Source: Rhabdophis nuchalis (lineage: Eukaryota > Chordata > Lepidosauria > Squamata > Natricidae). From it: DNA of 64,000 bases. The notes under the pieces are model-generated. The model worked only from the letters and a program-made list of their open reading frames with translations, had not been told where the DNA came from and made no database searches. Below are positions 15,666-62,975 of the stretch, in pieces. The translations under genes and the position numbers were made by a program. Each line of letters opens with the position of its first letter. Positions within the stretch are counted from its first letter, which is position 1. The stretch is taken from the NCBI GenBank assembly GCA_039707465.1, contig CM077651.1, positions 21,697,019 to 21,761,018 on the forward strand, in the 5' to 3' direction.

Positions 15666-15733
15666 ATATAGATAAGTGCAATTACAAATATTAAAATATG
15701 ATTAAATTTGAGATACCCTGTGCTAAAGATATA

Positions 15734-15776
15734 TATATCTATTTCAGGCTTTTTAGCCTTCTTCAGCTGGCCATAC
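15734..15776 (-). ncRNA. Partial hammerhead motif (stem I lost)
   Basis: The minus strand has CTGAAGA, stem II AGGCT/AGCCT with an AAAA loop and GAAA. The array boundary replaces the 3' strand of stem I with TA-rich DNA, so this copy should not cleave in cis. Confidence 0.6.
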
Positions 15777-15781
15777 TTCAT

Positions 15782-15862
15782 CTACTGGGATTTGAACCGG
15801 CACTTTCCAGCATTTCAGGCAAGCCTTCCTATGCCTTGAGCTAACCGACTTTCCCTGATTAC
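15782..15862 (-). other. tRNA-like segment upstream of hammerhead
   Basis: On the minus strand GTCGGTTAGCTCAAGGCATA resembles a tRNA 5' end with an A box, and GCCGGTTCAAATCCCAG carries a B box about 50 bases later. The T-stem pairs poorly, so this is a tRNA-derived pol III promoter candidate and not a functional tRNA gene. The second copy is at 16122-16202. Confidence 0.55.
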
Positions 15863-16063
15863 ATCAGCCTTTTACAGGACTCTTATTGATGAGAGAATAT
15901 TTTTACAGCTCCTGTTTTTAGGCCCGTTTAAGGGAGGAGACAAACTGTCATCCTTCTCTGCCCTTCGACTCAACCTAGAGATCATCCAGACAGAGACCCA
16001 TTAAGATTGCTGCTGTTTTTTAGGTATGTGTTAGATTTTTAAGGGCTGATTTAATAATTAAGA

Positions 16064-16110
16064 GACCAGGATAGATCTATTTCAGGCTTTTTAGCCTTCT
16101 TCAGCTGGCC
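16064..16110 (-). ncRNA. Predicted type I hammerhead ribozyme
   Basis: Minus-strand order: stem I GGCCAG, core CTGAAGA (CUGANGA with N=A), stem II AGGCT-AAAA-AGCCT, GAAA, self-complementary stem III ATAGATCTAT, cleavable C, stem I partner CTGGTC with one G-U pair. An outer stem I AAG/CTT follows an internal TAT/T loop. All conserved core positions are present. Confidence 0.85.
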
Positions 16111-16260
16111 ATACTTCATCTACTGGGATTTGAACCGGCACTTTCCAGCATTTCAGGCAAGCCTTCCTATGCCTTGAGCTAACCGGCTTTCCCTGATTAC
16201 ATCAGCCTTTTATATATATATATGTTAGGTTTATGAGCTGATCAATAAATAAATCAGAGA

Positions 16261-16307
16261 GACTAGTATAAATCTATTTTGAGCTTTTTAGCTCTCATCA
16301 GCTAGTC
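16261..16307 (-). ncRNA. Hammerhead-like motif with mutated GAAA
   Basis: All stems and CTGATGA are present on the minus strand, but GAAA reads AAAA. G12 is the general-base guanosine of the hammerhead, so this copy is predicted inactive. Confidence 0.7.
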
Positions 16308-16576
16308 ATACCCTCATCAGCTAGGCAGAAAAGGAAACAGTATGTCTCCTCCCTTAATTGGGACCCTAACAGGGTGTTGTGGAACAATTATATATATATA
16401 TTAGTGTCACAACACCCTGTTAGGCCCCAATTATTAAGGGAGAAAGCATACTACTCTCCTTTTCTGCCTTTCGGCTCATCACCAGAGACCATCTAGATAG
16501 AAAGCCCTGAGTTCTGTTGTGTAATTTTTTTATATGTGTGTTACGTTTTTGAGCTGATCAATAAATAAGTCAGGGA

Positions 16577-16623
16577 GACTAGGATAGATCTATTTCGAGC
16601 TTTTTAGCTCTCATCAGCTAGTC
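16577..16623 (-). ncRNA. Predicted type I hammerhead ribozyme
   Basis: Minus strand: GACTAG, CTGATGA, GAGCT-AAAA-AGCTC, GAAA, ATAGATCTAT, C, CTAGTC, with outer GGG/CCC pairs beyond a TAT/T internal loop. Every invariant core base is present. Confidence 0.88.
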
Positions 16624-16669
16624 ATACCCTCATCAGCTAATCATATCCTTCAAATCCCAGTAAGGGTAT

Positions 16670-16716
16670 GACTAGCTGATGAGAGCTAAAAAGCTCGAAA
16701 TAGATCTATCCTAGTC
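16670..16716 (+). ncRNA. Predicted type I hammerhead ribozyme
   Basis: Plus strand: stem I GACTAG (16670-16675), CTGATGA (16676-16682), stem II GAGCT/AGCTC with an AAAA loop (16683-16696), GAAA (16697-16700), stem III ATAGATCTAT (16700-16709), C17 at 16710, stem I partner CTAGTC (16711-16716). Cleavage is predicted after 16710. The outer GGG (16664-16666) and CCC (16718-16720) can pair. The upstream CAAATCCCAG is a remnant of the tRNA-like B box. Confidence 0.9.
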
Positions 16717-16887
16717 TCCCTGCCTTATTTATTGATCAGCTCAAAAACGTAACACACACACACTCACACACATATATGGTACATACGTATGTATAGATAA
16801 AATAAATATAATGGATATTTAAAAAATGTTGAAGTGTTGCATAGACAATATAAATGTATATTAAAAATAAAAAATAATTTAAAAATA

Positions 16888-24142: not shown

Positions 24143-24630
24143 AGGGCTCAGTGGCTAAGGTGCTGAGCTTGTCAATCAGAAAGGTCGGCAGTTCGGTGGT
24201 TCAAATCCCTAGCACCGCGTAATGGAGAAAGTTTCCATTACTTGTCCCAGCTTCTGTCAACCTAGCAGTTTAAAAGCACGTAAAAATGCAAGTAGAAAAA
24301 TAGGAACCACCTTTGGTGGGAAGGTAACAGTGTTCCGTGTGCCTTTGGTGTTTAGTCATGCTGGCCACATGACCCTGGAGACGTCTTCGAATAGTGCTGG
24401 CTCTTCGGCTTTGAAACGGAGAGGAGCACAAACTCCTAGAGCAGGTATCTCCAACCTTTGCAACTTTAAGTCTGAAGGACTTCAGCTCCCAGACTTCTCC
24501 AGCCAACTTTGCTGGCTGGAGAATTCTGGGAGCTGAAGTCCTTCAGACTTAAAGTTGCAAAGGTTGGAGACCCCTGCCCTAGAGTGAGGAACAACTAGCA
24601 CATATGTGCGAGGGGAACCTTTACCTTTAT
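24143..24630 (+). mobile_element. Sauria-type SINE interrupted by a MITE
   Basis: Head AGGGCTCAGTGGCTAAGGTG with B box GGTTCAAATCC, body CCACCTTTGGTGGGAAGGTA, then after the insertion AACAACTAGCACATATGTGC and an (ACCTTT)n tail of BovB type. Essentially full length apart from the insertion at 24442-24576. Confidence 0.92.
24442..24576. mobile_element. Palindromic hAT-like MITE nested in a SINE
   Basis: 135-bp near-perfect palindrome from CAGGTATCTCCAACC to GGTTGGAGACCCCTG. Flanks TCCTAGAG and CCCTAGAG match at 7 of 8, and removing one restores the SINE consensus order. Confidence 0.93.
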
Positions 24631-39283: not shown

Positions 39284-39446
39284 ATGGTTGCCGGGATGGG
39301 GCCGCTGCTTTGGGCTCCCCTCGGGCTGTTGCTGTCACTTCGGGCCGGAGCCGCTGACGTGAAAGCGCGGAGCTGCGGCGAGGTGCGGGAGGCGTACAAA
39401 ACGAAAGGCTTCAGCCTGGTTAACATCCCCTATCAGGAGATCGCAG
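39284..39446 (+). CDS. GPC6: Glypican-6, coding exon 1 (partial gene)
   Basis: Encodes the first 54 residues plus one base of glypican-6, a GPI-anchored heparan sulfate proteoglycan of the cell surface that modulates Wnt, Hedgehog and other growth-factor signalling. The translation starts [20 protein letters not shown], a hydrophobic signal peptide of about 23 residues. It continues into [20 protein letters not shown], with the first conserved glypican cysteine, and ends near IPYQEIA. From memory, this mature N-terminus fits GPC6 better than its close paralogue GPC4. The ATG at 39284 has A at -3 and G at +4, and gives 22 residues before the Ala-Asp-Val boundary, as in mammals. An in-frame ATG at 39296 is possible. 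The exon ends at CAG/GTAAGG, splitting a Gly codon (phase 1). The frame stays open upstream through the GGA repeat, which I treat as 5'UTR. Confidence 0.95.
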
Positions 39447-42400
39447 GTAAGGCACCTGGGGAGGCGGCGCGGGCGGGCGCGGGGCGACGGAGCTTCTCTT
39501 TTGGGGGTGCCTGCGGCGGCGGCGGCGGCGGTTCCTTGTTGGCTTTGCCCACCTTCTGGGTTTGACTTTTCTCTGGATCTCGCCTTTCTCCGTCCGTAGA
39601 AGCGAGCAGCGGTGGCTTTCTCCCCTCCGAGAGCAGCGCTTGGGAGCAGTTGAACTAGCCATGAATTGCTTCTTTGTGCAGTGAATAGAGAATCCTTTTT
39701 GAAGATTTCTAAAGCGACTTTCAGGGGATGGACAAATTGGGAGAGAGAGAGAGAGAGAGAAGCTTGGCAACAACTTTCTTTTCTTCCTTCTTTCCTTTTC
39801 CTTCCTTCCTTCCTTCCTTCCTTCCTTCCTTCCTTCCTTCCTTCCTTCCTTCTGTCCTTCTTTCTAAAACTATTTTTAGTCCTTTCTAGGAAAAAGGGAA
39901 GGAAGGAAGAAGAAAAGAAGGAAAGGAAGAAGGAAAGAAAAAATAAAGGAAAGAAGAAGGAAATAAGGATTTCCTTCTTTCTTTTTCTTTCCTTCATTGT
40001 TTCCTTCCTTCCTTCTGTCCTTCCTTCCTTCTTTTCTTCTTCCGTTCTTTCCAACAGGGATATTCCCCCCTCCCAGTTTAGAGTTGGCTTCAAGAAGTTT
40101 TTAGTTGGCTTCAAAGAATTCAACAGCTGGAACACAAGCAGTTGGTTCTCTTCTACAATCTTGGATCATCTTGTCTAGCATTAATTCATAAGCTCCCAGG
40201 ATACTATGAAACATATGAATAAAATTATTCAGCTTGAAACTGGAGGAACCTTACAGGGTTTCAACTTTTAGATGTCCACAACCAGTAACAATTGTCCTTT
40301 GCCAGTAGGGTGTGCTCTTTATCATACAGGAGCCCTACTGCCTCTATTTGGCAAAACACCTGTAAAAGATACAATGCTTCCTACACCTGAGGGAGATTGA
40401 AAACACCAGAACATTAGAAAGTAAAACAACACAAAACTGGGTAGATAAGTTATTGTGAAAGACATGCCTTTAAATTGTGTCTTTATATGTCGTATATGTA
40501 TGTATGGCCATTGAAATTTCCCTCTTCCTTTTGCACAATTGTGGCACAATGTGTGAAGTTTCTGGCTTGGGCTTCTACCTTTTTCACTGTAAGCCAAGCT
40601 GAATTCTTCCTAGGACAATATTTAAGCCACTTTGGCAACAAGAAATGGTAGGAATTGCAGCCCCGTTGTGCTATGGTAGTCCCATTAAGCCTGGGAGCTG
40701 CTCTCTCCCAGACTTGGTTGAACGAATGCATGACTAAGTGGGGGGGAAAAGTTGCACTTGTGAGTGAAAGGGTAGGAGAATTAACGGGTGAAACGTGCTG
40801 TCCATAATTTTTCAAAACTGAATGAAACCCCTCATTGATATACACTGAGTGTATACCAGCTTCCAGTGAGTCTCCTGTAGAGCTGAATAGCATACTGTAA
40901 TAATGATTTTTTTTTTAAAAAAAGGGATGTAGTAGTCATTTTTAAAGACCCTATAAAATAGAAACAAACATACGAAATTAAAATGAATGTTACTCTTCTA
41001 CCGTGCATTGTTCCAGTTTGGTTAATTTCATTTGGGTAAAGTTGTGAACTGGAGTCCTTTCCCAGATTGAATGTGCAGGAGTATATTTAGAGGACTTAGT
41101 TTGATGGGGCATTAATTGTGCAATTCATTCATACTTTAAATAAATAAATAAATAGAAGCTTCAGCCCAGATGTTGCTTACTATTTACAATGGAGCAGGGA
41201 TTTAAAAACTCTCTTCTTAAGAAGCAGAGTAGCTTAGGAAAGTTTTTTTCTTAACATATTTTAATTAGTTTTCTTTCCCTTCCTTGTAGTGCTAACATTT
41301 TCCAAGGTCTTCTCTTATTTTTTTAAAATATACAGTAATTGAACCCATATTTGCTGGTGGCCCCTCATAATAAGACTACTCTAGATTTTTTGAGACACAC
41401 TTCCGATTATCAACAATCAAAACAATCCATGCAGTTCTCAGAAAATGTTACAATTATGTGCAGTATACTTGTTATGTCCTATTCATAGCAGAGGAGAAAA
41501 AATATATCTGGTTTGTGTATTTTGGGTTGCAGACTAATAATGCATTACACAACTTTTCTCAACCAATGAATGGATGTAAGATTTTCACAAGAAACTGAGG
41601 CTGTTTCAAAATTGGTGTTTTGTGTATGAGTAGAAACATGGCAGTCATAAATTGTGAGTGAGTGTTGATCTGGTCTCACTTGGCATGTGGAGCTGACTTT
41701 CAGGTCATTGGTTCAGCCTGTAGCTATATAGATTAAAGTCTGGGTTGATATTATATAAAGCTGTAGCTGGCATTAGCTGAAATGGTTGGAGGAATCATTC
41801 TTTTAGCTTCTTTAAAAATAGTTTGAAAGATGCAAACCACATCCTTTAAAGGTTTTTTTTTAAATAAACTATTGGGTAATTTGTTTATTCAGTTCTTAAT
41901 TGCATTTATATCCTTATAAATGATATCCTTATATGTTGGGTTGCAAAAGAAAGTACTTTGTGGTTGAATATATCTTCTTGGTCCAAGTCCAACATTTTAA
42001 TAGTTATAAGGGAGAATTTAAACAGAATTGTTGGGCGGGAGTGGGGTGGGGGGTGAATTCATTTTTTCCTACTTCACTGTTTCTTTGGAGGTCCAAATAA
42101 CACCAAAGTATTTCTGCCATCTCAGTGGAGTGGAGCTGTGTTTTTCTGTTGCCCTGCCCTTTCTAATGAATTCACATAGATAGCCTTCTAATGCAACATC
42201 GCCCAAACTTTTGGGCACCAGAGACCAGTTCCATGGAGAGAGGTTTTTCCATGGACTGGAGTGGGGGGGCACATGGTTTTGTGTGCTGCCTGCATCCCGC
42301 AAGTGGGGCTTTGCTTGTTTGTGCAGGCTGGTTTCTGTTCTAATGTAATCATTTGTGCAGAAATTCAGTTGTCTCTCGTGCTGTGCAGACAGCCACAGTT

Positions 42401-45616: not shown

Positions 45617-45735
45617 TCGAAGCACCAGCCTGAAGATGATGAATGAGATTTCATCGAAACGTCGTGAAGATACTTCCAATTCTACGCGGGAGAAAACCCG
45701 AACAACCAAAGACCTACATACAAACACCCGCGAAA
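45617..45735 (+). mobile_element. Penelope-like element terminal fragment
   Basis: GAAGATGATGAATGAGATTTC and CATCGAAACGTCG translate as MMNEISSKRREDTSNSTREK. This is the C-terminal tail that follows the GIY-YIG domain in many vertebrate Penelope-like elements. TA repeats lie on both sides. Confidence 0.65.
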
Positions 45736-45769: not shown

Positions 45770-46048
45770 TATATTGTTACAGCTTCCTGTTAGGCCTATT
45801 CAAGGGAGGAGACAAACTTGTCATCCTTCTCTGTCCTTCGACTCAACCTAGAGACCATCCAGACAGAGACCTATTAAATTGCTGCTGTCTTTTTAGATAT
45901 GTGTTAAATTTCTTTAAGGGATGATTAATAATAATTAATTAAGAGACCAGGATGGATCCATTTCGGGCTCCTTAGCCCTCGTCAGCTGGCCATACTTTCC
46001 CTACATCCTGGTCTCTTAATTAATTATTATTAATCATCCCTTAAAGAA

Positions 46049-46051
<3 letters not shown>
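45770..46051 (-). repeat. tRNA-hammerhead family copy (first type)
   Basis: Matches the 15.9-16.1 kb array (GGAGGAGACAAACT, CAGACAGAGACC and AGAGACCAGGAT blocks). The tRNA-like part is replaced at 46004 by an inverted copy of 45908-45953, giving a hairpin with arms of about 46 bp. Confidence 0.7.
45945..45991 (-). ncRNA. Predicted type I hammerhead ribozyme
   Basis: Minus strand: GGCCAG, CTGACGA (CUGANGA with N=C), stem II GGGCT-AAGG-AGCCC, GAAA, stem III ATGGATCCAT, C, CTGGTC, with outer AAG/CTT pairs. Stems II and III differ from the 16-kb copies by changes that keep pairing. Confidence 0.87.

Positions 46052-46127
<76 letters not shown>
46052..46127 (+). repeat. (AT)n microsatellite
   Basis: About 38 AT units between a hammerhead repeat and a Penelope fragment. 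Confidence 0.96.
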
Positions 46128-46134
<7 letters not shown>

Positions 46135-46738
46135 CAACGTTTCGACAAGATCTCACTTGTCATCATCAGGCAGGCTTGTGTCTGTGAGTGTGACTGCGGA
46201 GGCATCGCCCCTCTTTAAATCTTGGTGGGGGGGGTGGAGTGCTGACTATTGTTGTGAGTGGGTTGATTGGCTGTGCAGTTGCATCGTGACTGGTAGATTG
46301 ATGCTGATTGGTCTCATTTGTATGTTTCTCCTTGTTTTGAATTTCAACGGCTTGGCTGGAGGGTGGGGCTCGTCTGCTGGTCAATGCTGGCTTCCAGATA
46401 TCTGGTAGGTGGGAGGTATCATCACGTCTGTTCATGCTGCTAGATTGTTTCTCTATTTCAATGGCTTCTCTGATTATTCTCCTGTTGAGCTGTTCCGCCT
46501 TGGAGATCATTTTAGTTCCTTGAAAGTCAATGTCATGTCCTGTAGTTTTGAAATGTTGATAGAGAGATGAGGTATTAAGATGATTTTTTAAAGCATTTTT
46601 ATGTTCAGCAATACGTGCACTAATCCTTCTGTTGGTTTGTCCTATGTAAGTGGCAGGGCAGCTTTTACATGGAATTTTGTAGACTCCTTGGTTTTCTAGC
46701 TGGATCTTGTCTTTTGTGTATATATGTAAATGTTTCAC
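46128..46738 (-). mobile_element. Penelope-like element fragment with GIY-YIG endonuclease domain
   Basis: The minus-strand frame 46166-46738 (190 codons) reads GVYKIPCKSCPATYIGQTNR, then RISARIAEHKNALKNHLN and TTGHDIDFQGTKMISKAEQL. This is the GIY-YIG nuclease of Penelope-like retroelements, with the CxxC insert, the YIG motif, the conserved Arg and the Glu of AEH. The reverse transcriptase domain, expected upstream, is missing: the fragment ends at 46738 against a hammerhead repeat. The 3' part contains a CTGATGA...GAAA segment (46140-46169) that resembles the hammerhead reported in Penelope elements, with one extra base. Confidence 0.9.
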
Positions 46739-46915
46739 AACAACCTGTTATTAGGTAGGCCCCAATTAAGGGAGGAGACATACTGTTTCCTTTCCTGCCT
46801 TTCAGCTCATCACCAGAGACCATCTAGACAGCAAGCCAAGAATTATGTTGTGTAATTTTTTTTTATATGTGTGTTAGTTTTATGAGCTGATCAGCTCATA
46901 AAACTAACATATGTA
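46739..46915. repeat. Second-type hammerhead-family repeat (body only)
   Basis: Shares AATTAAGGGAGGAGACATAC and CATCACCAGAGACCATCTAG with 16320-16480. It ends in the palindrome TTTTATGAGCTGATCAGCTC (continuing symmetrically). No ribozyme core is present in this piece. Confidence 0.65.
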
Positions 46916-46919
46916 TATT

Positions 46920-46982
46920 TATATATATGTGTGTGTATGTGTGTGTTTGTGCGTGTTTGTGTGTGTGTGTGTGTGTGTGTAT
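46920..46982 (+). repeat. (TG)n microsatellite
   Basis: GT-rich dinucleotide run between two hammerhead-family pieces. Confidence 0.93.
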
Positions 46983-47152
46983 GTCACAACACCCTGGTAA
47001 GCCCCAATTAAGGGAGGAAGCATACTGCTTTCCTTTTCTGCCTTTTGGCTAATCACCAGAGACCATCCAGACAGGTTTTGAGCTGATAAATAATTGGGGC
47101 TTACCAGGGTGTTGTGACACAAGCATATACTTATTCCCCATGTCTCAGCTGA

Positions 47153-47222
47153 TGAGGATAGCACCAGTGGTCTAGTGACAATTACAACTGCCTCACATGT
47201 GATACTTCCCTGGTTCGAATCC
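47153..47222 (+). other. tRNA-like segment upstream of hammerhead
   Basis: AGCACCAGTGGTCTAGTGAC resembles a tRNA 5' end with A box, and CTGGTTCGAATCCCAG carries a B box. A G appears deleted from the T-stem. It is a candidate pol III promoter for the downstream ribozyme and not a functional tRNA. Confidence 0.6.
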
Positions 47223-47234
47223 CAGTAAAGGTAT

Positions 47235-47281
47235 GGCTAGCTGATGAGAGCTAAATAACTCGAAATAGATCTAGCCTACTC
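47235..47281 (+). ncRNA. Degenerate hammerhead motif
   Basis: CTGATGA and GAAA are intact, but stem II has a mismatch (GAGCT/AACTC), the base before the cleavage site is G instead of U, and stem I is mispaired (GGCTAG/CTACTC). Predicted inactive. Confidence 0.7.
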
Positions 47282-52940: not shown

Positions 52941-52949
52941 AGATGGGTT

Positions 52950-53036
52950 TTTTCTTTGAAGACATTTTGCTTCTCATCCAAAAAGCTGAGGACGCTTCTT
53001 GGATGAGTAGTGAAACGTCTTCAAAGAAAAAACCAG
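52950..53036. repeat. Short imperfect inverted repeat
   Basis: TTTTTTCTTTGAAGACATTT and the later ACGTCTTCAAAGAAAAAAC pair, with TCATCCAAAAAGC and GCTTCTTGGATGA inside. Confidence 0.7.
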
Positions 53037-53515: not shown

Positions 53516-54233
53516 ATGTGCCTAACAGCTGCATCTTTGCATAGGAGAAAAACACATGGGAATAAATATCTACAGATTGGGGAATTGATGGAACTACAGT
53601 ATTATTTTATTTCACATGTCCTTTCGCAGAGAGATAATAACTAAATGTTTTTGTTATCCAGAGCTATAGGTAGAACACACTATTTTTATAATGACGGTAG
53701 AGGTATCTAAAAGGCATCTGAATTTCAGGATGAAACTGTCATAGTTATATAGTTCCACAATCTCCATGGGAATTGTGTTCTTAGTAGCTAACAAATGTCT
53801 AGAGAATTAATGTCCCTCTTGATTTTGTTCAACTACCATTCCTATCAGCCTTAATCAGAGTTGACAGTGATCAGCAATAGTGGAAGATACAGACCAACAC
53901 AATCTGGATGACTGCAAATCCTTCTCCCAATTATATTAAACAGCATACTGCTATATTACCTAAGAGACCTGGAAAAGCTGTATATTGTTTTGTAACAAAG
54001 GGGAGATTGTGTTGATGTTAGCATTTATCCAAGTGAGGCTTCGCTGCTTCATATATAAAGATCACAAGTTGTTCCATATTATCCTGAAAGAAGCATATGG
54101 AAATGAGATGTATCTTATCAGCTGTGTTCATATACTTTGTCCAATAACATCTGACTCAGAGCGTTGATAATTTATGTAAAAACACCATTTTGTATTTCAG
54201 GATTAGTTTAAATTGTCCTTCTCACAAGGAATA
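53516..54233. other. No recognised feature
   Basis: AT-rich unique sequence. Confidence 0.4.
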
Positions 54234-54235
54234 TA

Positions 54236-54751
54236 CACTATATTGCCAAAAGTATTTGCTCACCCATCCAACTAATCAATCAGGTGTTCCAATCACTTCC
54301 ACAGGTGTATAAAATCAAGTACCTAGGCATGCAGACTGTTGTTACAAACATTTGTGAAAGAATGGGTCGCTCTCAGGGTGGAACTGTGATAGGATGCCAC
54401 CTGTGCAACAAATGCAGTTGTGAAATTTCCTCACTCCTAAATATTCCACAGTCAACTGTCAGCTGTATTATAAGAACGTGGAAGTGTTTGGGAATGACAG
54501 CAACTCAGCCACGAAGTGGTAGGCCACGTAAACTGACAGAGCGGTGTCAGCGGAGTGCGAAGAGGTCACCAATGTTCTGCAGAGTCAATTGCTACAGACT
54601 CCAAACTTCATGGGGCCTTCAGATTATCTTAAGAAGAGTGCGCAGTGGACCGACATCATATTGAACCCTATGGATTAGGAATGGGATGCCACTTACTGTA
54701 AGTTCATATGTGAGTAAAGGGAAGTGAGCAAATAATTTTGGCAATATAGTG
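54236..54751 (+). mobile_element. Tc1-like transposon, internally deleted
   Basis: Terminal inverted repeats CACTATATTGCCAAAAGTAT and its counterpart ending GGCAATATAGTG are flanked by TA on both sides (54234-54235 and 54752-54753), as expected for Tc1/mariner. The 516-bp element keeps the transposase N-terminus: MGRSQGGTVIGCHLCNKCSC, then the helix-turn-helix-like SSLLNIPQSTVSCIIRTWK and GRPRKLTER. A deletion removes essentially the whole DDE catalytic region, so it encodes no active enzyme. Confidence 0.93.
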
Positions 54752-60667: not shown

Positions 60668-62975
60668 TTTATTTTTATTTATTTATTTTATTAAATTTAT
60701 ACCCCGCCCTTCTCCAAATGGACCTAGGGCGGCGCACAGGGATGTTAAAATACATACAAAATATATAAAATATATAAAATTTAAAAAACTTATTCTAATA
60801 AATAAACCCTGCTTTAAAAACTTTAAACCGAATTAAAAGTCCCAAGTTTAAAACTATCTAATAGTCAGTAATGGAGGTTACGCTAGGCCGGCTAGATGGA
60901 ATAAATGTGTCTTCAGACACTTGCGGAAGAGGCGGAGGTCAGAGATGGTACGGAGTTCAGGGGGTAAGTCGTTCCAGAGGGCTGGGCCCGCCACAGAGAA
61001 GGCTCTTCCCCTGGGTGTCGCCAGTCGGCATTGTCCAGCCGACGGCACCCTGAGGAGGCCCTCTCTGTGGGAGCGTATCGGTTTGAGGGATGTATGGGGC
61101 AGGAGGCGGTCTTGCATATAACTAGGCCCCGAGCCATGGAGCGCTTTAAAGATGGTCGTTAAAACCTTGAAGCGCACCCGAAAGACCACAGGAAGCCAGT
61201 GCAACTCGCGCAGGATAGGTGTTATGTGGGAGTGTCTAGGCGCTCCCGTAATCACCCGCGCGGCTGCGTTCTGGACTAGCTGCAGCTTTCGGGTGCACCT
61301 CAAGGGGAGCCCCATGTAGAGAGCATTACAGTAGTCGAGTCGAGAGGTGACGAGTGCTTGAGTGACTGTGCGTAAGGCACCCCGGTCCAGTAAGGGGCGC
61401 AATTGGCGCATCAGGCGTACCTGATGAAACGCCCCCCTGGCCACGGCTGCCACATGATCTTCCATAGACAGCCGGGAATCCAGGAGGACACCCAAATTGC
61501 GCGCCCTCTCCACGGGGGCCGGTGTTTCGCCCCCAATGGCCAGAGTTGGAATAATCTGGCTGAACCGGGGCGCCGGAAGCCACAGCCACTCAGTCTTGGA
61601 CGGGTTGAGCTTGAGTTTGTTACCACCCATCCAGATCCGTACGGCTTCCAAGCACCGGGACATAACCTCGACGGCATCGTTGGGGTGGTCTGGGGTGGAT
61701 ATGTACAACTGAGTATCATCAGCGTACAGATGATATCCCACCCCAAAACCACTGATGATCTCGCCCAGCGGCTTCATATATGTGTTGAACAGTAGGGGCG
61801 AGAGGACCGACCCCTGAGGAACCCCACATATGAGGGGTCTCGAGGCCGACCTCTGCCCCCCTGCCAACACATATTGCGACCGACCAGAGAGGTAGGAAGA
61901 GAACCACCGCAGAACGGGGCCTCCCAGCCCCAACCCCCCCAGTCGGCGCAATAGGATACCATGGTCGATGGTATCAAAAGCCGCTGAGAGGTCTAATAGG
62001 ACTAGGATAGAGGAATATCCTCTATCCCGCGCCCTCCAGAGATCATCAACCAACGCGACCAATGCCGTCTCGGTGCTGTGCCCGGGTCGGAAGCCGGACT
62101 GGCGCGGGTCTAGATAATCAACTTCCTCCAAGTGTCGCGGAAACTGTTGAGCCACCACACTCTCAACAACCTTCACTAGAAAGTGGAGGTTGGAGACAGG
62201 ACGATAGTTCTCTGATAATGCTGGATCCAGGGACGGCTTCTTGAGGAGGGGCCTTACTACCGCCTCTTTCAAGACGGCAGGCAAGGACCCCTCACTCAAA
62301 GATGCGTTGACAATGCCCTGGAGCCAGCCTCGTGTCGTCTCCCAGGATGCCAGTACAAGCCAGGAGGGACACGAGTCCAATAAACATGTGGTAGCCCTAA
62401 GTCTCTTTGACAACTTGTCCATATCCTCGGTGGTAACAAAATCAAACTCCTCCCAAGATGGTGTCACAAGAACAGCCTCGGCCCGCTTGACTGGACCACT
62501 GTCGATGGAGGGTAGCTCGTTCCGAATCCGAGTGATTTTCTCCTGCAGATAAATCCCAAATTCCTCTGCTCAACCCTGTAAAGGGGCTTTCCGCGGCCTC
62601 TGGTGAAGGAGGGAGCGGGTCACCCCAAACAGGGTGGCAGGGCGGTTATCTGCGGATGCAATAAGAGTGGCACAATACTCACGTTTGGCCACTCTTATCG
62701 CCACTAAGTAAGTCCTAATATGATCTCTCACTAGTGTTCGGTCGGCTTCGGAGCGAGAAGATCTCCATCTGCTCTCTAGGCGTCTCTTGTGGCGCTTCAT
62801 CTCCCTAAGCCCCTCGGTAAACCAAGGCGCCCAGATGGTTCGTCGCCGCAAGAGAGGCCGCAAGGGCGCGACTCGGTCCAAGGCCCCCGTGGCCGCACTT
62901 AACCATGCGGCCACTAGGTCCTCAGTCGAGTCGCGGGGCAAGTCCACAGGAATTGGCCCAAGCTCCTAAAACCTC
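60668..62975 (-). mobile_element. CR1/L2-like LINE with long ORF2 (5'-truncated)
   Basis: The minus strand shows a (TAAA)n tail at 60671-60692, a 3'UTR with TAGGGCGGCGCACAGG, then ORF2. It is the longest LINE copy in the window. It stops upstream at about 62975, so the endonuclease domain is missing. Smaller copies of the same group are at 11803, 20690, 23128, 50205 and 55868. Confidence 0.95.
60878..62947 (-). pseudogene. LINE reverse transcriptase ORF2, one in-frame stop
   Basis: Two frame-aligned segments, 62570-62947 (125 codons) and 60878-62467 (529 codons), are parts of a single 690-codon frame split by one TGA at about 62570. The region up to the next Met is also open. The first segment is the linker after the endonuclease (IWAPWFTEGLREMKRHKRRL). 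The second holds the RT: SENYRPVSNLHFLVKVVE, motif A LLDLSAAFDTIDH, motif B CGVPQGSVLSPLLFN, motif C YADDTQLYIS, then the C-terminus RLDYCNALYMGLPLR and WNDLPPELRTISDLRLF. Both YADD aspartates and the motif A aspartate are intact. The product would be a LINE RT, but this copy lacks the endonuclease and promoter region. Confidence 0.93.

Follow-up and report, generated by a model that had tools for sequence, protein, structure and literature searches.

The closest described systems are the non-LTR retrozymes of salamanders, namely Rtz331 and Rtz353 of the axolotl and the satellite repeats of newts, which measure ~330-350 bp and occur in two subfamilies (PMC7229834). RNA circles have been shown for the axolotl elements of 330 and 350 bp, and the axolotl genome contains 126,247 such hammerheads (PMC7229834). 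Penelope-like elements have been named as candidates for the mobilization of retrozymes because both have type I hammerheads and tandem copies and because the two occur together (PMC7229834), and retrozyme repeats were described in a review as carrying no conserved motif that would betray the mobilizing partner (PMC7761336). In a rotifer, Penelope shows direct and inverted terminal repeats, partial tandems, and a palindromic inverted junction, features that were read as self-priming (PMC3846280). A Penelope of Anolis was described to start reverse transcription at internal sites matching its genomic ends (PMC11167929). In Schistosoma mansoni, nearly all of 2,368 tRNA-Gln-like matches were SINEs similar to Sm-alpha, a tRNA-derived SINE with a hammerhead (PMC2770079). 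As for the conserved intronic hammerheads of amniotes, Perreault et al. (2011) proposed a Xenopus-like mobile element as their origin (PMC3088659).

We analyzed a 64-kb window (the whole stretch of squamate DNA under study), in which two loci hold copies of a hammerhead-bearing element of two subfamilies, A and B (Table 1). The unit size and the presence of two subfamilies were as in the salamander retrozymes; moreover, the element shares with those of the axolotl its non-coding nature, a type I hammerhead, a weak palindromic stem III, and co-existing Penelope elements (PMC7229834). It differs in that the copies here are known from one 64-kb window and from sequence alone. In addition, term searches of the main text of the axolotl study showed no tRNA-like head: SINE and polymerase III are not mentioned, and tRNA appears only with regard to the ligase, processing, and references (PMC7229834). 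The sequence-only reading, made previously on this DNA, had regarded the joining of a tRNA head to a hammerhead as unusual. However, this combination is not new, because Sm-alpha and Sj-alpha of Schistosoma are likewise SINE-like and carry a hammerhead, although the host is distant (PMC2770079). Penelope-like elements share the hammerhead motif, partial tandems, and inverted copies with palindromic junctions (PMC3846280, PMC11167929). Unlike them, the element encodes no protein, and its hammerhead, with a distal stem I and a complete stem III, is not of the minimal form. What is new here is that a retrozyme shows copies ending at (TA)n/(CA)n tracts as well as palindromic inverted copies, both in the manner of Penelope. 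Among the papers listed in word searches, no title or beginning of an abstract described a squamate retrozyme, and the texts consulted contained no amniote retrozyme, no vertebrate retrozyme with a pol III head, and no retrozyme with Penelope-like ends.

Table 1. Features of the element and of its Penelope-like neighbors (positions in the window)
Feature	Position	Strand	Evidence or score
Type A element, composed of head, hammerhead, and body followed by another head and a cut-off second hammerhead	15733-16212	-	~1.4 units, period 338
Second type A hammerhead, broken off no more than 5 nt from the cleavage position	15733-15772	-	own model 48 bits
Second type A head, tRNA-like, from A box to B box	15788-15843	-	A+B pattern
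Type A hammerhead, complete, CTGAAGA	16064-16110	-	own model 84.4 bits; HH9 26.4 bits
First type A head, tRNA-like, from A box to B box	16126-16181	-	A-box start to B-box start 45 nt
Type B hammerhead, G12 lost	16261-16307	-	own model 82.9 bits; HH9 28.5 bits
Tail-to-tail palindrome of type B body pieces, (TA)n tip	16323-16469		inverted-pair search, alignment
Type B body downstream of cleavage site	16395-16582	-	reference in alignment
Head-to-head inverted type B pair, 96-nt arms 99% complementary, 32-nt spacer	16535-16758		repeat/inverted-pair search
Type B hammerhead, complete type I	16577-16623	-	own model 89.5 bits; HH9 33.5 bits
B-box remnant upstream of plus-strand hammerhead	16649-16662	+	sequence inspection
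Type B hammerhead, complete type I	16670-16716	+	own model 89.5 bits; HH9 36.0 bits
Second Penelope-type minimal hammerhead motif; internal ATG opens 41 stop-free codons, as far as translated	45630-45660	+	loosened descriptor
Type A body, 86% identical to first locus	45771-45950	-	alignment
Head-to-head palindrome around hammerhead	45905-46053		inverted-pair search; orientation from sequence
Type A hammerhead, complete, CTGACGA, compensatory changes in stems II and III	45945-45991	-	descriptor; HH9 26.4 bits
Minimal hammerhead motif of Penelope type, with an additional nt preceding the 6-bp stem II	46139-46169	-	loosened descriptor
Penelope-like element, GIY-YIG endonuclease end of ORF	46166-46744	-	Pfam GIY-YIG E 0.001, 19.7 bits, cut-off 22.6
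Fragment of type B body whose head end bears a perfect palindrome of 38 nt (46872-46909)	46723-46893	-	inverted-pair search, alignment
Type B body fragment; 46982-47010 with inverted partner 47091-47119	46982-47074	-	inverted-pair search, alignment
Sole complete type B head, tRNA-like, from A box to B box	47168-47222	+	A-box start to B-box start 44 nt
Degenerate type B hammerhead lacking U16.1 of stem III and one pair each in stems I and II	47235-47281	+	own model 74.1 bits

Hammerheads were searched with a descriptor of the core, stem II, stem III, UH, and a stem I of at least 4 bp, which gave core starts at 16676+, 16617-, 16104-, and 45985-. The first three belong to complete type I hammerheads located exactly where the sequence-only reading had drawn them (16670-16716 on the plus strand, 16577-16623 and 16064-16110 on the minus strand). 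All three have CTGANGA and GAAA in the core, and their stems I and II measure 6 bp and 4-5 bp, respectively; stem III is palindromic and ends in UC. The fourth complete type I hammerhead, found with the same descriptor at 45945-45991 on the minus strand, lies beyond the interval 15735-16760 considered previously. Four complete hammerheads in the 64-kb window compared with none in 60 dinucleotide-Markov windows of equal length, and chance cores were thereby ruled out. In the copy at 16261-16307, the alignment bore out the reported loss of G12, which is changed to A. Collections of viral and prokaryotic contigs yielded 0 matches each to the hammerhead pattern, as expected for such collections.

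The alignment of six ribozyme copies, two of which are identical in sequence, needed no gaps, and 95% of the cells were paired. Changes on both sides occurred at 6 of the 17 pairs, which was reached by 5 of 500 shuffles, and in 10 cells, which was reached by none of 500. The covariation score was 0.388 compared with 0.223 in shuffles (0 of 500 reached 0.388), and slid alignments scored at most 0.206. Compensatory changes were found in all four helices, i.e., distal stem I, core-proximal stem I, stem II, and stem III, indicating that the ribozyme fold was kept while subfamilies A and B diverged. The distal stem I sits beyond a UAU/U internal loop, which is how natural type I hammerheads with loop contacts are built. 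A fold kept during subfamily divergence argues against the view that the element is an ordinary tRNA-SINE, moved by a LINE and now decaying, in which a captured hammerhead is a passenger. This view agrees with the element size, which is within the SINE range, with the presence of a LINE reverse transcriptase ORF in the window, and with A and B boxes that match the pattern also matched by three ordinary SINEs (24152, 51661, and 11201); we nevertheless consider it unlikely, also in light of the copy ends described below.

A covariance model built from the six copies recovered all of them as well as the truncated copy (48 bits), and the next match scored 10.3 bits. The sequence-only reading had proposed a check against Rfam: at the gathering cut-offs there were 0 matches in the window, and the hammerheads were matched only below the cut-off, by HH9. 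Hammerhead_HH9 (RF02275) was the best of the Rfam hammerhead models, with 26-36 bits against a gathering cut-off of 52. Its top scores at the first locus were 36.0, 33.5, and 28.5 bits, and the second locus gave 26.4 bits at 45933-46003. A further match of 26.4 bits, at 16052-16118, was obtained when a shorter stretch was searched and was not among the rows of the longer-stretch search. Folding energies of the six copies were mostly unremarkable (z from 0.06 to -2.23), so that energy alone is no proof of ribozymes. MicroRNA precursors were rejected as candidates; 11 miRNA rows outscored the best hammerhead row, yet all were below their own cut-offs and sit on or across the two palindromes, where any near-perfect hairpin scores. 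The hammerhead folds are real.

The anatomy of the units was then compared with that of retrozymes. On the minus strand of 15733-16212, a body of ~195 nt lies between the first hammerhead and the second head, and the second type A hammerhead breaks off at a TA tract. The tandem array with a 338-bp period that had been described here is real as a repeat (142 nt at 15733-15874 and 16071-16212, 99% identical), but it extends over only ~1.4 units. Beside it, as far as 16758, three type B hammerheads stand in an inverted arrangement. The second locus, at 45.77-47.33 kb, was absent from the earlier annotation and holds further copies. Although no complete type B unit occurs in the 64-kb window, its length of ~334 nt follows from the overlap of the body 16582-16395 with the piece 47105-47275, whose first 30 nt match 16419-16390. 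No stop-to-stop frame of at least 90 aa overlapped 15735-16760. Lengths of 338 nt (A) and ~334 nt (B) are inside the ~170-400 nt of non-coding sequence used as a criterion for metazoan non-LTR retrozymes. Of the tandem units bounded by hammerheads that are likewise used for retrozymes, the window shows the one partial type A tandem, and type B copies are inverted or single. The designation as a retrozyme, put forward from the sequence, is well supported by this anatomy: non-coding units of ~335-340 nt, one partial tandem, a type I hammerhead, and a weak palindromic stem III.

For the tRNA-like heads, we used a pattern of A and B boxes (pol III type 2) separated by 25-50 nt, which was based on the consensus boxes and written after the heads had been inspected. 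The pattern was found at 16181-, 15843-, and 47168+, upstream of three of the seven ribozyme copies, and at three ordinary tRNA-SINE loci (24152+, 51661-, and 11201-). In total, the window gave seven rows, one locus being counted twice, and 100 random windows gave 2 matches altogether. The pol III-like head is thus supported as a sequence signal. Both boxes had been ascribed to each type of element; this applied to type A, which has two heads, and for type B only to 47168-47222, outside the interval considered at that time. Among the three type B copies inside that interval, one retains the B-box remnant at 16649-16662 and two have neither box. The segment 16649-16708 aligned at 92% to the head end and hammerhead of 47105-47275. 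No A or B boxes were present on the own strand of the ribozyme copies at 16617-, 16301-, and 45985-. Two type B copies carry a repeat of the ribozyme core region directly upstream, where the 47168 copy has its head, and the head may have been lost by deletion between such repeated core pieces. At 16610-16649 and 47145-47165, a type B piece with the motif CTGATGAGG was seen repeated upstream, flanking the place of the head.

A real tRNA gene was ruled out, as ARAGORN with the bacterial code recognized no tRNA, Rfam searched to E 10 gave no tRNA row, and single-strand folding produced no cloverleaf. The loss of any tRNA fold, together with the retention of both boxes in only three of seven copies, would suit a retrozyme that has no working pol III promoter, is transcribed by read-through, and bears the boxes as a relic of an older SINE fusion; the published retrozyme model permits read-through by pol I, II, or III (PMC7761336). 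However, the type A and type B heads both match the consensus boxes at a spacing of 44-45 nt despite a weak likeness above the B box, where 14 of 500 shuffles reached the alignment score; this likeness fits separate tRNA origins of the two heads as well as a common one. Moreover, TTTT is absent from the sense strand. Six element segments (1412 nt) contained 0 TTTT and 18 AAAA runs. Base shuffles predicted 4.6 TTTT (zero in 0.1% of shuffles), whereas dinucleotide shuffles predicted 2.0 and reached zero in 11%, by which the absence is not significant. The three ordinary SINEs, at 300 nt each, had 0, 1, and 0 (1 in 900 nt). The absence of TTTT fits a terminator-less pol III unit and is not proof of one. 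We consider a unit devoid of a working promoter quite unlikely. The 5′ end of the type A copy lies 31 nt above the A box, and pol III usually starts closer to the A box than this.

Inverted-pair searching gave 12 pairs in the window. Five were at the two loci (16323-16469, 16535-16758, 45905-46053, 46872-46909, and 46982-47119), two were cross-matches among those copies, and five were elsewhere. The five locus pairs comprised four head-to-head and one tail-to-tail arrangement. Other palindromes were observed at 24432-24585 (~90% self-complementary) and 52946-53034 (~82%). A tract was defined as alternating TA or CA of at least 8 nt, and the ends were chosen by the author from the alignments; ten ends were inspected and nine counted, one being left out since its tract is common to the neighboring end. 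Eight of the nine ends were at most 20 nt from a TA/CA tract, a zone that makes up 2.3% of the window, with the caveat that the element body itself contains a short ACACACATATA motif. The exception was 46723, with no such tract nearby. Thus, the structure known from Penelope-like insertions, a partial tandem and head-to-head inverted copies with a palindromic junction, is present; it had not been part of the sequence-only reading. Ends at TA/CA tracts and copies in tandem and inverted order disfavor transposition as a LINE-driven SINE. They might be expected if one old element had been scrambled by slippage and inverted duplication in a microsatellite-rich hot spot, leaving no present family, since inverted copies and TA/CA tracts occur at both loci and several copies are degenerate. 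Such a local accident is very improbable in our view, given that the two loci are 30 kb apart, hold both subfamilies, and repeat the same architecture, and that an identity of 99% persists between the two type A repeats.

At the second locus, the copy 45771-46053 stands between two Penelope pieces, the end of a GIY-YIG ORF at 46166-46744 on the minus strand and a start piece at 45630+. The ORF end matched one protein of Phrynocephalus at 75% identity, in an alignment spanning 60% of the query, and one of Ahaetulla at 68%. The strict Penelope descriptor gave no motif, and the form allowing one extra base before stem II was adopted after the motifs had been seen; this loosened form gave 0 matches in 60 random windows. 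Both motifs (45630+ and 46169-) carry an extra T between CTGANGA and stem II, unlike the hammerheads of the element. Of three Penelope piece ends that were checked, two were near TA/CA tracts and one was not. The element itself is not an autonomous Penelope: the first locus has no frame of 90 aa, and the fragment at 46166-46744 is a separate neighbor. Structure at the two loci points to a Penelope-like mobilizer, and the proximity at one locus could reflect nested insertion into the same tract. The in vitro insertion of Anolis Penelope did not need hammerhead cleavage (PMC11167929), which calls for caution in transferring a ribozyme-dependent cycle to the element.

From these observations, we regard it as reasonably probable that the copies are tRNA-headed, non-autonomous retrozymes of subfamilies A and B that were moved by a Penelope-like element. 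RNA polymerase III would start at the internal A and B boxes and read through tandem units, for the sense strand contains no run of four T. The type I hammerhead would cleave the transcript into unit-length pieces and would probably work best as a dimer, given that stem III consists of no more than three weak pairs closed by a palindromic GATC loop, much as in salamanders. By analogy with the axolotl work, a host ligase may close some monomers into circles. Finally, a Penelope-like element would copy the RNA and insert it at (TA)n/(CA)n tracts, with self-priming of the cDNA giving rise to the partial tandem and to the palindromic inverted copies. Four of the seven ribozyme copies lack a complete head, which counts against this reading, as do the sub-threshold Rfam scores, the lack of a recognizable tRNA, the 31 nt between the 5′ end of the type A copy and its A box, and the low share of ribozyme stems predicted for the copy at 45985. 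If it is true, a pol III head in a unit with no terminator would also account for the multimers on which the ribozyme acts, and TA/CA-tract ends with self-primed palindromes would be a signature of the enzyme that moves animal retrozymes.

Predicted folding was examined in the context of the units. Stems I and II formed together in 76% (linear) and 59% (circle) of the predicted ensemble of the 338-nt type A unit, and in 82% (linear) and 79% (circle) for a type B copy with its own body. For the copy at 45985, the values were 4% (linear) and 11% (circle), and within its hairpin the ribozyme stems were not formed in the predicted ensemble. In the predicted hairpin of 16535-16758, the probability of the hammerhead stems was 0.0, since the two arms form a duplex (-170 kcal/mol). 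The two best-scoring hammerheads (16577-16623 and 16670-16716) are therefore predicted to be unformed in a read-through transcript and probably silent there, which makes the circle junctions sought at 16710 unlikely to arise from this inverted-pair locus. If transcribed, the hairpin 16535-16758 would be a source of dsRNA; several miRNA models match it below their cut-offs.

HH9 is the single intronic ribozyme of RECK in amniotes. The ribozymes of the element have in common with it the core and AAAAAG at loop II, and they score below the HH9 cut-off. Kinship with HH9, as judged by sub-threshold scores, may thus reflect a shared constraint on natural hammerheads. We suggest, tentatively and with considerable doubt, that squamates carry a recently mobile, Penelope-moved, tRNA-headed retrozyme whose ribozyme shares its stock with the amniote intronic HH9. 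If true, this would be a living mobile relative within amniotes, where papers have so far pointed to frogs, other amphibians, coelacanths, and trematodes, and the conserved intronic hammerheads would have a closer candidate source in an HH9-like ribozyme that is mobile within amniotes themselves.

Other features of the window were also recorded. GC-rich sequence contains a probable first exon of a glypican gene at 39335-39451 on the plus strand (25.6 bits to Pfam Glypican, E 7e-6, slightly under the cut-off of 26.4); if it is one, the second ribozyme locus would sit in the first intron. At 54212-54661 on the plus strand, a Sleeping Beauty-type helix-turn-helix match (E 7e-7, below the cut-off) is probably a Tc1/mariner remnant. 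The LINE reverse transcriptase frame at 60881-62569 on the minus strand is stop-free over 563 aa. The best five of its 7970 matches, from which we conclude that the host is a squamate and probably a snake, were to four snakes and one tegu: Pituophis (81% identity, 36% query cover), Erythrolamprus (72%, 83%), Naja (73%, 83%), Ahaetulla (76%, 43%), and Salvator (66%, 99%).
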